This document shows, piece after piece, positions 2,522 through 31,148 of a DNA stretch of 31,148 nt. Each line of letters begins with the position of its first letter. The first letter of the stretch is position 1. Below the pieces are notes generated by a model. That model ran no database searches and had not been told where the DNA came from. It saw only the letters and a program-made list of their open reading frames with translations. The DNA lies in IMG/VR virus record IMGVR_UViG_3300032323_000920, positions 1 to 31,148 of that record; one strand, written 5' to 3'. The translations under genes were made by a program, and so were the position numbers. The DNA is from a virus.

Positions 2522-2974
2522 TCAGTTTACAAAGTTTTCAAAGGCCAGTTTGATTTTGTCCAAATCTTCCCGGTACTTTTTGTTGGTATCTGCAAGGTCA
2601 TTGACCAGCCGGGTGCTGTGCATCACGGTTGTATGGTGTCGGTTGCCACACATCCTACCAATAGCTTTCAATGGCATGGTTGTTTTGTTTCGCAGAAGCC
2701 AAAGGAAAATTTGTCTTAGCTCCACGATTTCACGCTTCCGGGTGTGCAGTTTAACATATTCCGCTTGGTAGTACGGGAAAACGGATTTGATTGCAAGGTG
2801 GGCCGCTTTGGCATACTCGTTGCTGGCACTTAGATTGTCAACTTTCAGCATCCTTTCAAGTTCGGAAATTCGCACCGCTTGGTGCTTGATTGTTTCTTTG
2901 AGGGTATCAATTTCCGATACCCGGAATGATGTCCTGCTGTTTGGTTTTTTGGGTTGTTTTATTTTTATTCTCAT
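2522..2974 (-). CDS. Stand-alone DnaA domain IV-like origin-binding protein
   Basis: The C-terminal half (residues 75-150) matches the DNA-binding domain IV of DnaA: a basic helix REIVELRQIFLWLLRNK (81-97), a helix-turn-helix LKAIGRMCGNR (102-112), and the signature HHTTVMHS (113-120), where bacterial DnaA has DHSTVMHA or similar. The N-terminal 75 residues are a basic tail and a coiled coil (residues 23-45). There is no AAA+ ATPase domain, so it is not a full initiator. It is coupled by ATGA to the primase-helicase gene. A DnaA box (TTATCCACA) lies at 6257-6265 in the divergent gap. A likely role is binding the phage origin and loading the helicase there, or competing with host DnaA. Confidence 0.75.
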   Translation of the reverse strand: MRIKIKQPKKPNSRTSFRVSEIDTLKETIKHQAVRISELERMLKVDNLSASNEYAKAAHLAIKSVFPYYQAEYVKLHTRKREIVELRQIFLWLLRNKTTMPLKAIGRMCGNRHHTTVMHSTRLVNDLADTNKKYREDLDKIKLAFENFVN

Positions 2975-4602
2975 GATTTTTCTAAATATAATCCGGTTGG
3001 TATGTCGTATTGAAATAGCTGCGCTCCGATTGCGCCCCAGTGGCTGAATTTTACTTTCTGCACATGGACTTCAACACTATTGTTTTGGAAGTTGCGATAA
3101 ACCGTAATTCCATTGTCGGTCTTGTTGAAAAAGTTTGCGCTTCCTGCGATGTCGTAAAGCGTTGGCACTTCGTAATGGCCTGCTTCTTTCTTTTGTATCT
3201 TCCGTGGGTGGGCAACTAAAAAGCAATGCACGTTGTACCGCTCGCAGAAATTGACAATCTTGTCCAATGACTGCCCGATGTATTTGGTTTCGCTTTCGGT
3301 GTATTGGTGCTCCAATTTGTTCCAAGCATCAATTACAAACCAGTCAATATTTTTGCGGTTTTTCAGTTCGGCCACCTTTCCCAAAATGCTGTCGAGTGAA
3401 AAGTCCTTTTCAGGTTTCACAAAGAAGATATTGTTTTCAAGCAGCATCAATGCTTCGTACACTTCCTCTTGGTTCATGCGGTTATTGCCATCAAATGGCC
3501 GCTGTGTTATCTTCCGCATCAACTTACTGATGTGCAGTTCCACTGGTCTATTTTCGGGGCTGTAAAAGGCTCCTTTCCATCCGTGCTTTTGCAGTAACTT
3601 TATCAGGATGTGGTCTAAAAAATCGGATTTACCGTGCCCCGGTACTCCGGTAATGGTAGTCAAATACCCTTTGTGGAATTTGAGCAGGCTATCAAAGCCA
3701 CGCATCCCGGTTCCGGCTCCTTCCGGCAGGCCGTAGTTGTAAAGATTTTCAATTTCCGGGAGATAATCGGTAATGCTAAACACACCAATCATGGGAAATT
3801 CAGTAAAATTCATGCACGCATCTCGCAGGGCAAATGCACCATTGAGCAGCAGGAACTCGTTGGCATCTTTGCAATCCTTGAATACAATGTAATTACACTT
3901 TTCTTTTCCAAACCTTTCCGCTATGGCATTTCGCAAGTCAATACCCGGAGCATCGTTATCAACTGCGATGTGGATTTTTTCGATGTGGTCAAACGCTGGC
4001 ATGAAGCGGTCAAAGAATGTCAAGTTTGGTTGCGCTCCATTGGGCACACTGATTACATTTTCAATCCCGGCTTCAATCAAAGCCAGCGCATCCATTTCAC
4101 CTTCAACAATCCACAGCTCATTAGCGGCTGCAATGCAATCAATGTTGTATGGGATTAGCTCCGCTCCCTTGTGCATCTTAAAATGTTTGGAAGCATCCCG
4201 ATATTTCACGTTTTTTAGCTGCCCATTTTCAAAGTAATTAAAGCAAATGCAGTTTACATCTTTGGAAACTTGCGGCATCCATTCGGTTTGCTCCGTGATT
4301 TGCATCTTGTTCAGGGTTGCTGCTGTTATCCTGCGACCTTCAAACCATTTTAGCACCTTGTCGGATAGCTGTGTGGTGTTTTTCCATACGGGCACCTCGT
4401 ATTTGATAACTTCCGGGCGGTCAATAATGCCACCTTTCCACTGGCAATGCTGGCAAATCCAAACCTTTTTATCCAAGTTGACTGAAAGACACTTGTCGGT
4501 TTTCTTTTTCCGGGTGTGGCTGCATTGTGGGCAGAGTGTTTGAACTTCGCCTGATGTCTTTCCGGCAGGTATTTCGATATTGTGGTATGAATAAGTTAGC
4601 AT
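2971..4602 (-). CDS. Bifunctional primase-helicase (T7 gp4/Twinkle-like)
   Basis: This 543-aa protein primes and unwinds DNA at the phage fork. A zinc-binding domain has Cys pairs at 24/27 and 50/53. A TOPRIM fold follows, with WIVEGEMDAL (164-173, catalytic Glu 167) and AVDNDAPG (213-220, the DxD pair). The RecA-like helicase has a Walker A GVPGHGKS (319-326), a Walker B WFVIDAWN (421-428), a sensor LVAHPRK (462-468) and a probable arginine-finger region near 485-500. Size and domain order are those of phage primase-helicases. Its ATG overlaps the DUF6291 gene by seven bases, and it is coupled to the DnaA-like gene downstream. No DNA polymerase is visible in this genome, so the host replicase must be recruited. 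Confidence 0.9.
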   Translation of the reverse strand: MLTYSYHNIEIPAGKTSGEVQTLCPQCSHTRKKKTDKCLSVNLDKKVWICQHCQWKGGIIDRPEVIKYEVPVWKNTTQLSDKVLKWFEGRRITAATLNKMQITEQTEWMPQVSKDVNCICFNYFENGQLKNVKYRDASKHFKMHKGAELIPYNIDCIAAANELWIVEGEMDALALIEAGIENVISVPNGAQPNLTFFDRFMPAFDHIEKIHIAVDNDAPGIDLRNAIAERFGKEKCNYIVFKDCKDANEFLLLNGAFALRDACMNFTEFPMIGVFSITDYLPEIENLYNYGLPEGAGTGMRGFDSLLKFHKGYLTTITGVPGHGKSDFLDHILIKLLQKHGWKGAFYSPENRPVELHISKLMRKITQRPFDGNNRMNQEEVYEALMLLENNIFFVKPEKDFSLDSILGKVAELKNRKNIDWFVIDAWNKLEHQYTESETKYIGQSLDKIVNFCERYNVHCFLVAHPRKIQKKEAGHYEVPTLYDIAGSANFFNKTDNGITVYRNFQNNSVEVHVQKVKFSHWGAIGAQLFQYDIPTGLYLEKS

Positions 4603-5186
4603 ACAAATCCTTTCAAATGTTTAGGCAGCAATCCGTTCTTTGGTTTTTTTGCCAGCCATTTGCGAGCTGTCAAATATAAGCTCACATATTTTTTGTTATC
4701 CCGGTAGTTTTCAATTTCGCTTAAAATTTCATCAACCTGCTCACGCTCCCATCCTTCATCAATCAGTTTATCTATTTCGGCAGTAGAAATTTTCAAATGA
4801 GAAAAAGCCCTATATGTATCTTTATTTATTACATTAACATTATCATTAACATTAACATTTACATTAACAGCTTTTTTTGCTTTCGTTTGCTTTTCAAAAA
4901 AACCATTTGCTTTTTTTGCTTCCGTTTGCTTTTTTGGTCTGCCACCTAACTTACCACTTTCGCTGCGCTTTTCCCTTACTTCATCCCAGTGGCGCAAATC
5001 CCTTTTTAACTGCATCTTGATTGGTTCAAATGCCAGTTGCAATACAAGGTCATCGGCCACCGGGTTTTCATCGTTTACATAAGCGAGAATGTGCTTTATC
5101 AATTTGCCTGCAATTTCATCGGGCAGCATATTAAAAATATTCTGCTGGTCGCAGTACAGCACGAATGACTTTTTATCAGTTGCCAT
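4596..5186 (-). CDS. DUF6291 replication-associated protein
   Basis: The N-terminal 85 residues (KKSFVLYCDQQNIFNMLPDE..., with IKMQLKRDL and KRSESGKLGG) match the DUF6291 domain, often found just before replicative helicases in phages and thought to act as an initiator or loader similar in context to lambda O or DnaD proteins. A low-complexity linker follows (alternating Val-Asn residues), then a helical C-terminal domain (ISTAEIDKLIDEGWEREQ onward). I chose the ATG at 5186 because AGAAAGGG lies eight bases upstream; ATGs at 5204 and 5234 would extend it by 6 or 16 residues. It overlaps the upstream gene by 11 bases and the helicase gene by seven. Confidence 0.75.
   Translation of the reverse strand: MATDKKSFVLYCDQQNIFNMLPDEIAGKLIKHILAYVNDENPVADDLVLQLAFEPIKMQLKRDLRHWDEVREKRSESGKLGGRPKKQTEAKKANGFFEKQTKAKKAVNVNVNVNDNVNVINKDTYRAFSHLKISTAEIDKLIDEGWEREQVDEILSEIENYRDNKKYVSLYLTARKWLAKKPKNGLLPKHLKGFVC
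4831..4870. repeat. Hexameric tandem repeat inside the DUF6291 gene
   Basis: About six imperfect copies of ATTAAC (GTTAAT on the coding strand) encode an alternating Val-Asn linker between the two domains of the DUF6291 protein. Such short tandem repeats are prone to copy-number change without frameshift. Confidence 0.8.
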
Positions 5187-5400
5187 TTGTTTGCCCTTTC
5201 TCATGCAACCTAACGCACTCCCGGTAGTAAACAAGGTAGAGCTTTAGTTTTGCTTTTTCATGTAGGTAGGTGTGCCATAATAAACGATTGTGGCACTGGT
5301 CGATTTCGAGCTGACCTAATCGGTAGGCCAATGCTTCGATGCACTGCTCCGCTATTTCTTTGCAGAGCGGCTTTGGTTTGTATAGGTTTATTTTTTCCAT
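5176..5400 (-). CDS. Small protein of unknown function behind a structured leader
   Basis: The product is 74 aa, helical and basic (MEKINLYKPKPLCKEIAEQC...), with no family I recognise. The frame is open upstream to an ATG at 5490, which would give 104 aa, but that extension would be encoded by a strongly folded RNA ending in U8 and reads like non-coding sequence. I therefore prefer the ATG at 5400, immediately after the U-tract. The gene opens the replication operon and overlaps the DUF6291 gene by 11 bases. The leader makes it a candidate for conditional expression. Confidence 0.65.
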   Translation of the reverse strand: MEKINLYKPKPLCKEIAEQCIEALAYRLGQLEIDQCHNRLLWHTYLHEKAKLKLYLVYYRECVRLHEKGQTNGN

Positions 5401-5472
5401 AAAAAAAACACCCACACTTTCAAAGGTTGAACCCGGCTCCAAGTTAGCCGACCTTTTACTCGCATGGGTGTT
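5401..5472 (-). ncRNA. Structured leader RNA with terminator-like 3' end (attenuator candidate)
   Basis: On the minus strand the RNA folds into a nested rod. The outer stem is AACACCCA with UGGGUGUU (5472-5465 with 5414-5407); the middle stem is AAAGGU with ACCUUU (5456-5451 with 5427-5422); the inner stem is CGGCU with AGCCG (5450-5446 with 5438-5434) around a 7-nt loop AACUUGG. A one-sided 6-nt bulge (GGUUCA) could pair with the loop through AACU/GGUU. The outer stem runs into eight U residues and the AUG of the next gene follows at once. A host-type promoter lies about 70 bases upstream. The form is that of an intrinsic terminator or riboswitch-like attenuator controlling the replication operon. 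No known class is recognised. Confidence 0.6.
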
Positions 5473-5538
5473 GTTTAGGGGGGTATTCATTTGGCTTGGT
5501 ATTCTCGGCACGGGGTTCAGTCGTGTTGTTCCGATATG

Positions 5539-5570
5539 CAAACTTAAAAAGGAATTTTCAAATAAACAAA
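5539..5570 (-). promoter_or_regulatory. Bacteroidota-type promoter for the replication operon
   Basis: Minus-strand TTTG (5570-5567), 20 bases, then TAAGTTTG (5546-5539). Unlike the other host-type promoters it is not next to a start codon: about 135 bases of leader, including the folded element at 5401-5472, separate it from the ATG at 5400. Confidence 0.75.
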
Positions 5571-5786
5571 TTAATCGTTGGAATAATCTGTGCGGTCTGC
5601 CATATCTCGCAAATCAATGGCTTCGTCTTCCTGCCAGCGGATTTTGCATTCAAGATACCATGACCATCCTTTTTCCCATTGCTTAAATTCTTCGCTGCGC
5701 AATGGGTAGGGGTTGGTGCCATCGTGCTGCTGCCACTGGTAACGCTTGCATGCGTTGTAACCTTGTTCAAATATTGTGTTTTCCAT
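5571..5786 (-). CDS. RMF/CrpP-like small protein
   Basis: This 71-aa protein has the spacing GYNA (9-12), then NPYP about 16 residues later and WEKGWSWYL near 37-45. That matches the GYxA...(C/N)PY...W..GW pattern of the ribosome modulation factor and the phage/plasmid CrpP proteins. RMF dimerises 70S ribosomes in stationary phase; the function of phage members is unsettled. The N-terminal MENTIFEQ and the acidic tail are specific to this protein. It lies between the Cys-rich gene and the replication-operon promoter, and a small UUCG hairpin precedes it. Confidence 0.55.
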   Translation of the reverse strand: MENTIFEQGYNACKRYQWQQHDGTNPYPLRSEEFKQWEKGWSWYLECKIRWQEDEAIDLRDMADRTDYSND

Positions 5787-30778: not shown

Positions 30779-31148
30779 GGCTAATCTCCTTCAATGCAAT
30801 GGTTTCACTTCCTGCAATGTACTCGGCAGGCTTTACAATCTCACCGCCCTCAGTTACTGGCATGATATTTTTCTGCTCGCTTTGGTACGACCATTTTGCA
30901 AGGTGTTCAACGTGCAGCATTTTTTGTTTGAGTGCTGCCCATTCGTCTAAGTGGTCAAATTTCCACCGCCCTGCCCCGGCCCGGCATTGAATTTCAAAGC
31001 CCAAGTGCTGAAAGGTTTTTCCATGCTTTTGCGCTTCGGATATTGCCTGCTGCTGTATTTGTTCTTTGGCTGCTTTTATTTGCTTCTCAAGTCGTGCAAG
31101 GTGGCAGAACGCATCCAAAGCGGATGCGTTGCCTTCCTCAACATCAAA
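30768..31148 (-). CDS. Junction-spanning small phage protein, C-terminal part
   Basis: This is the continuation of the gene that starts at 147. In the circular genome it is one 134-aa frame; here it is open to the right end of the contig and stops at 30768. The visible part contains the end of the N-terminal coiled coil, a Cys/Gly-containing middle (GFEIQCRAGAGRWKFDHL) and MPVTEGGEIVKPAEYIAGSE near the C-terminus, a layout shared by small early proteins of Bacteroidota phages. An internal TTG at 31118 would be a false start created by the contig end. Function unknown. Confidence 0.85.
   Translation of the reverse strand, partial: FDVEEGNASALDAFCHLARLEKQIKAAKEQIQQQAISEAQKHGKTFQHLGFEIQCRAGAGRWKFDHLDEWAALKQKMLHVEHLAKWSYQSEQKNIMPVTEGGEIVKPAEYIAGSETIALKEISHAD
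31026..31148. repeat. Terminal direct repeat, right copy (circular join)
   Basis: Identical to bases 1-123. See the left copy. Bases 1-123 and 31026-31148 should be counted once. Confidence 0.95.

Follow-up and report, generated by a model that had tools for sequence, protein, structure and literature searches.

A leader RNA with two covarying pseudoknots ahead of a phage replication operon: a candidate transcription attenuator

The window analysed here is a virus contig of 31 kb (IMG/VR virus record IMGVR_UViG_3300032323_000920, 31,148 nucleotides). Its ends, positions 1-123 and 31026-31148, overlap by about 123 nt, i.e. the last 100 bases are repeated at the start with an offset of 23, which makes a closed or circularly permuted genome probable. 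On the minus strand a structured leader is followed by an operon consisting of gene 1, a DUF6291 protein gene, a primase-helicase gene and a DnaA-like gene (Table 1). The product of gene 1 matched nothing in Pfam and PHROGs at 1e-3, and a loose Pfam limit gave one sub-threshold hit (E 0.013). The DUF6291 protein has a repetitive Asn-Val stretch (NVNVNVNDNVNV, window ~4800-4870) between its conserved N-terminal and C-terminal parts. The 71-aa protein encoded upstream of the leader had no match in Pfam; its N-PYP-W--GW pattern recalls what we take to be ribosome modulation factor-like proteins, and a relative is found in the same position in locus L056.

The promoter between this upstream gene and the leader is present as an earlier note on this DNA had described it, and it fits the Bacteroidota consensus TTTG / TAnnTTTG as given in the available text of PMC7366714. 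A TA-rich -7 box at constant spacing before the first hairpin is found in the 50 related RNAs that have enough upstream sequence; it is the strict TAnnTTTG in 14 of these, and mostly TATAATTG, TATATTCG or similar in the remainder. From the type of promoter and from the relatives we infer that the host belongs to the phylum Bacteroidota.

Table 1. Positions of the genes and RNA elements around the leader in the window, in the order of transcription.
Feature	Position	Strand	Remarks
Upstream gene, 71 aa	5571..5786	- (same strand as leader)	ends at 5571, adjoining the promoter
Promoter	5539..5570	-	TTTG 5570-5567, TAAGTTTG 5546-5539; Bacteroidota-type
P1 hairpin	5505..5534	-	5534-5531/5508-5505 and 5525-5522/5512-5509; conserved bulge AACAA 5530-5526
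a, UGAACC in the P1 loop	5514..5519	-	pairs with a'
b, CCAAG	5495..5499	-	4 nt 5' of the leader AUG; pairs with b'
Conserved leader AUG	5488..5490	-	present in relatives
Leader ORF	5176..5490	-	crosses the terminator, in frame into gene 1
P2 terminator stem, 5' strand	5462..5472	-	pairs with the 3' strand
Internal loop AGUA	5457..5460	-	faces GAAA 5421-5418; letters nearly invariant
P3, 5' strand	5451..5456	-	pairs with 5427-5422
P4 hairpin	5434..5450	-	5450-5446/5438-5434
b', CUUGG in the P4 loop	5439..5443	-	pairs with b
a', GGUUCA (the 6-nt bulge)	5428..5433	-	pairs with a
P2 terminator stem, 3' strand	5407..5417	-	pairs with the 5' strand
U8 tract	5401..5408	-	read in the sequence
Gene 1, 74 aa	5176..5400	-	AUG at 5400; without known family
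DUF6291 protein	4596..5186	-	PF19808, E 9.8e-25
Primase-helicase	2971..4602	-	phrog_239, E 1.2e-93
Protein with DnaA C-terminal helix-turn-helix	2522..2974	-	PF08299, E 1.1e-15

The leader (5539-5401) contains four nested helices, with the terminator stem P2 and its U8 last. The earlier note had read nested helices, a 7-nt loop, a 6-nt one-sided bulge, the U8 and the AUG at 5400 from the sequence, and all of these are present; the folding program gives 11, 6 and 5 bp for the three helices. The note had overlooked the 5' hairpin, two pairings over a long distance and the AUG at 5490, which is conserved. The 75-nt terminator part has a folding energy of -28.3 kcal/mol, whereas its shuffles average -17.5 (z -3.4; 2 of 200 were as good). 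The energy of the 163-nt stretch 5532-5370 alone is unremarkable in the shuffle test (z -1.3), and for the longer leader energy folding favours a different, nested pairing. The main proof of the fold is comparative: judged by the related sequences, the leader RNA does fold, and it does so with two pseudoknots.

Relatives were collected by an IMG/VR search with the primase-helicase, which gave 80 loci (the best 80 of 100 stretches), and a covariance model was built from 27 distinct leaders (alignment A1). The model gave 44 strong matches in the window and the 80 loci. Two 60-locus sets drawn by DNA patterns added 33 and 36 matches scoring over 75 bits, many of them from contigs already found. 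The 111 collated matches, from which three truncated ones were excluded and in which one 26-bit row was included though not believed, reduce to 51 credible distinct RNAs; that row (L163, 26.3 bits) was set aside as chance. The motif matched a second time in L027 and in L069; the match in L027 appears to be coding sequence that resembles it by chance.

In the 27 relatives of A1, 96.7% of 1083 cells pair, 24 of the 41 pairs have both partners changed, and covariation scores 0.416, compared with 0.151 for shuffled and at most 0.096 for slid alignments. The 51-sequence alignment A3, which was fitted to the covariance model and does not include the pairing b/b', has 99.5% of 1777 cells paired. Within it, all cells of P2, P3 and the upper stem of P1 are paired (100% each), with both sides changed in 7 of 11, 5 of 5 modelled and 2 of 4 pairs, respectively; P4 has 98.4% of its cells paired, and the nearly invariant lower stem of P1 has 97.5%. 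Covariation is thus seen in each helix except that lower stem, and also in both pseudoknots. The absence of compensatory changes in homologues, which the earlier note had listed as speaking against its reading, is firmly ruled out. The unpaired letters AACAA in P1 and AGUA/GAAA between P2 and P3 are nearly invariant in this RNA (class A in what follows); the AGUA/GAAA loop is presumably of the loop-E type.

The first pseudoknot, a/a', comprises 6 pairs that are formed in 100% of cells in all 51 relatives, 4 of them changed on both sides, and it was absent from the covariance model to which the alignment had been fitted. The loop-bulge pairing AACU/GGUU proposed by the earlier note did not hold up, as it can form exactly in only 7 of the 51. 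The second pseudoknot, b/b', was tested separately because the linker aligns poorly. All 31 distinct combinations of linker and loop are complementary (at least 5 bp in 29, 4 bp in 2), and the mean score of 13.2 dropped to 8.7 when the loops were re-dealt (0 of 5000 shuffles). The partners include CCAAG/CUUGG, GGAAG/CUUCC, GGAAC/GUUCC and CAGAG/CUCUG as well as AGAGC/GCUCU, CCGAC/GUCGG and UGGACA/UGUCCA.

Where enough sequence follows, the RNA is nearly always found 5' of a gene of 65-74 aa, the L183 group having it directly 5' of DUF6291. Beyond the small gene the neighbours are exchanged, i.e. DUF6291, two other kinds of replication protein and differing helicases occur there, and identity of the leader DNA reaches 97% in loci whose next protein is only ~50% identical (L002, L001). 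We note that the 65-74 aa gene travels with the RNA while the later genes swap; its product may be a partner of the RNA. Class A RNA was not found outside phage contigs in what was searched. Among bacterial genome contigs, the P1 pattern occurred in 90 stretches, and in the 80 of these that made loci the best model score was 17.2 bits. In the phylum of Spirosoma, the genus of the genome with locus L230, 3 of 395 genomes gave 31-43 bits, all judged to be chance: all that the 43- and 31-bit rows retain is a P1-like part plus a generic hairpin of small size, the 32-bit match L402 is longer and pairs poorly, and L401 overlies the 3' end of a gene. Published phage records held no match to the leader, and the closest primase relative among them is 41%. 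Class A RNA was not found upstream of metabolic genes; its context is replication genes only.

These data bear on the idea of a ligand-controlled attenuator, in which a phage or host protein or a metabolite would bind the core (AACAA, AGUA/GAAA) and thereby shift termination or the masking of a start. The near-invariant letters outside the helices, in P1 as well as in the P2-P3 internal loop, and a core that the two pseudoknots make aptamer-like, agree with it, and the conserved letters could indeed be a binding site for a protein or other ligand. We nevertheless think such control quite unlikely, given that no Rfam class matches, that no member lies upstream of metabolic genes and no convincing one was seen in the 395 Bacteroidota genomes, that the unrelated leader classes described below have no common core sequence and that the first gene past the leader varies.

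The conserved AUG is found ~0-9 nt 3' of b in every relative. The frame that it opens stays open past the terminator in all of the 48 distinct RNAs tested (three of the 51 were dropped by the pattern of the script), and in 46 it shares the phase of gene 1. The +2 frame, which is the sole fair control because the UGA of AUGA closes the +1 frame at once, is open in only 1 of 48. In the two exceptions, L183 and L196, the leader frame overlaps the beginning of the gene in another phase and reaches its stop codon within the gene. The register in which the conserved RNA is read differs between three clades (e.g. THASKEAANFQPGSTLESVGVFFM, LTQVKGGSLPAGFNLESVGSFVFM, TPPTSMMRLSSGRVEHQNVGGVLFM), so the peptide is not conserved even though the ORF is open. 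In other words, since the frame stays open despite the differing registers, it is an open path for ribosomes and not the peptide that is conserved. Counted from the first base of the AUG, P2 starts 18 nt downstream, and therefore a few codons suffice for a ribosome to reach it. The earlier note had considered leader-peptide control through a Trp-rich 25-aa frame from an ATG at 5465. In spirit this survives in the 5490 frame that is kept open through the terminator, but the ORF was the wrong one, as the 5465 frame is found in only 4 of 51 relatives. Conservation of the 5490-5400 frame as protein, which the note had named as a sign against its reading, is ruled out by the same change of register. 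Thus comparison of the relatives establishes not only the fold and both pseudoknots, but also the leader AUG and its open frame.

The agreement in phase in 46 of 48 RNAs would also be seen if gene 1 simply began at 5490 and the structure, lying in the 5' end of the coding region, tuned mRNA stability or translation without terminating transcription. This seems very improbable, since a U-tract directly follows a stem with covariation along its 11 bp, since the extension that such a gene would encode is not conserved and its register differs among relatives, and since two groups of RNAs (L183, L196) have a leader frame that differs from that of the gene. Hardly credible is the notion that the structure is merely the terminator of the same-strand gene that ends at 5571, just 5' of the promoter, or that it arose by chance: its own promoter, the compensatory pseudoknots and the frame that is open across distinct relatives already contradict it.

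Primase relatives without class A RNA were inspected by eye and with a descriptor scan. They yielded four classes of leaders (B: L056, L061, L063, L064, L067, L068; C: L071-L075, L078, L315; D: L300; E: L331-L333, L344), of which L063, L068, L073, L315 and L300 were found by eye or pattern, outside the scan; some of the relatives inspected (e.g. L077, L299, L302, L307) have no such leader. The classes are unrelated in sequence, and in each a segment X before or over the leader AUG pairs with a segment X' in the loop of a terminator hairpin that sits before replication genes. These leaders probably belong to phages infecting Bacteroidota. Of the 18 hand-chosen leaders of classes B-E, 16 have an ORF without a stop as far as the 3' terminator strand, and in 12 it continues beyond the U-tract; the +2 frame is open as far as the strand in 2 leaders. 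In L073 and L315 the ORF ends 8 nt short of the strand, and in L071, L072 and L331 at or inside it. X and X' covary: the true partnering was the best of all permutations in class B (1/120, 5 leaders), class C (1/120, 5 leaders) and class E (1/24, 4 leaders). In class B, the 5'-end segment X is repeated at the start of the first gene past the terminator, so that X' could pair with either start, a layout that we take to be similar in form to seqA/seqB/seqC of P4. The leaders L331, L332 and L333 have a common box, ACATACTTAAA, between the leader AUG and the terminator; it is read in different frames and is therefore conserved as nucleic acid.

The descriptor scan covered the 2.4 kb that lie 5' of the primase in 102 loci, with the class A loci and nine others excluded, and gave 26 matches, 20 with an open leader ORF; these include near-identical contigs and represent 13 distinct credible leaders. 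The reverse strand gave 5 matches and the shuffles 4, none with an ORF. Over whole loci at a higher cut-off there were 65 matches, 16 with an ORF near X, compared with 40 and 4 in shuffled sequence. The scan had been tuned on leaders already seen, and its matches are few, most of the 102 loci giving none; because of these limits we place the weight on covariation and on the position before replication genes rather than on the scan alone.

A related leader (class F) is found upstream of the primase in the cultured Flavobacterium phages Muminvirus, Lillamyvirus and Elemovirus (L405, L407-L410). Its 5' end and the loop of a terminator-like hairpin form the pairings GTGAGACG/CGTCTCAC, GTGGAACG/CGTTCCAC, GTGAGAAG/CTTCTCAC, GTGAGATG/CATCTCAC and GAGAGC/GCTCTC, which covary (1/120 permutations). 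The class F leaders have no ORF that crosses the hairpin, so translation is not a universal part of the design.

That cultured phages retain the pseudoknot without an ORF would suit a product that acts in trans. Here the terminated transcript of ~130 nt would itself be the product, a pseudoknotted small RNA directed at other leaders or at host RNAs, like the P4 CI RNA or Gifsy-1 IsrK, for timing, dosage control or superinfection exclusion. A promoter and a terminator of its own flank the RNA tightly, complementarity between the 5' end and the terminator loop could work between molecules as well, sequence X recurs at a gene start in class B, and the available text on IsrK (PMC4825925) offers a precedent. 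We consider this unlikely, since it leaves the open frame through the terminator in 48 of 48 RNAs unexplained and since the pairing segments vary freely among relatives, as suits a partner in cis.

The reading that we put forward, with about even confidence, is transcription attenuation in cis: the leader would control the phage replication operon through its terminator, which a ribosome initiating at 5490 would keep from forming, and b/b' would mask that initiation site. The RNA holds its position while the genes past gene 1 are exchanged, and the unrelated leaders of classes B-E repeat the layout in the same position (16 of 18 with the ORF). Against coupling to translation stand the class F pairing without an ORF through the terminator and the ORFs of L073, L315, L071, L072 and L331 that end short of, at or inside the 3' terminator strand, and no polymerase pause signal was identified in the window leader. 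For the start site, termination, ribosome read-through and start masking we infer the following course. Transcription would begin at or just 5' of the P1 hairpin, and in the folded RNA the P1 loop would pair with a' and the linker ahead of the AUG with the P4 loop. P3 and P2 would close this double-pseudoknotted core, and RNA polymerase would halt at U8. While the terminator forms, b/b' would cover the ribosome-binding region of the 5490 AUG. A ribosome that started there before b' existed would translate into P2 and prevent the terminator, and polymerase could then proceed into gene 1, DUF6291, the primase-helicase and the DnaA-like gene. According to the available text of PMC7366714, Bacteroidota select start sites without Shine-Dalgarno sequences; such a choice of starts would fit masks of free sequence, as in b/b' and X/X'.

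A broader version is possible, and we offer it tentatively. Many Bacteroidota phages may gate their replication operon by a common, undescribed RNA switch, in which the terminator loop holds a private antisense to the start region of a terminator-crossing leader ORF and the first ribosome decides on transcription of the replication genes. Without Shine-Dalgarno sequences each lineage would evolve its own pair of start and anti-start, and the double pseudoknot of the window would be the most elaborate version. The window leader would represent an RNA family not known before, marked by two covarying pseudoknots, and would be evidence that in a major phylum phages time DNA replication by translation-tied transcription attenuation. 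It would also offer a way of masking start sites in bacteria that do without Shine-Dalgarno sequences. Since cultured Flavobacterium phages carry a related leader, part of the attenuator idea is testable now.

The RNA was found neither in the open-access literature searched nor in Rfam. Rfam 15 gave no match in the window at the gathering score and none to the other-class leaders in 13 loci, three further loci giving tRNA only; the class F leaders of L405 and L407 also had no match in Rfam. The model RF03535 (TEG147 of Staphylococcus aureus) scored 26.8 bits against a gathering score of 56.1, so the leader is not a member. The likeness extends over the whole 60-nt model and consists of a terminator stem and a GAGUA/GAAA internal loop, but TEG147 is without the P1, the leader AUG and the pseudoknots of the window leader, and the resemblance is best read as chance or a shared motif. 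Of the switch before the replication operon that the earlier note had proposed, the structured, terminator-like controlling leader is well supported by conservation, covariation and context. Nothing points to a small-molecule riboswitch: there is no Rfam class for it, no member turned up outside phage contigs in what was searched, and since no ligand is indicated the term "riboswitch" is not supported.

The autoregulatory pseudoknot of T4 gene 32 also lies in the leader of an early phage gene. It acts on translation, is bound by protein and has no terminator. An attenuator of the trp leader-peptide type can be set aside, as the peptide is not conserved and the Trp-rich ATG is rare. The leader resembles that of E. 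coli pyrBI (pyrL), where, in the available texts of PMC5021804 and PMC4824070, a leader ORF enters an intrinsic terminator just before the operon, the ribosome blocks the hairpin, and translation of pyrL into its terminator prevents termination (PMC5021804). The window leader has, by form, an intrinsic terminator (covarying stem and U8) and, by sequence, an ORF that runs into it in all 48 RNAs tested. Unlike pyrBI, the window RNA is extensively folded, a pseudoknot formed with the terminator's own loop would mask the start of its ORF, no pause region rich in U was seen in the window, and the operon serves replication, not pyrimidines. The available text of PMC4824070 also states that stop codons near a terminator repress that terminator in E. 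coli, and that a terminator in the first 100 bp of a coding region can work undisturbed by ribosomes, as these do not reach polymerase in time unless it pauses. The nearest phage systems are the P4 CI RNA and IsrK-orf45-anrP of Salmonella Gifsy-1, and action of the window RNA in trans is only a candidate. They too have a phage leader RNA with a terminator and a read-through mRNA, and in IsrK-orf45-anrP the leader ORF is conserved as nucleotides and not as peptide (available text of PMC4825925). There, orf45 is translated from the read-through transcript (PMC4825925, same text), whereas the window ORF starts before the terminator and crosses it.
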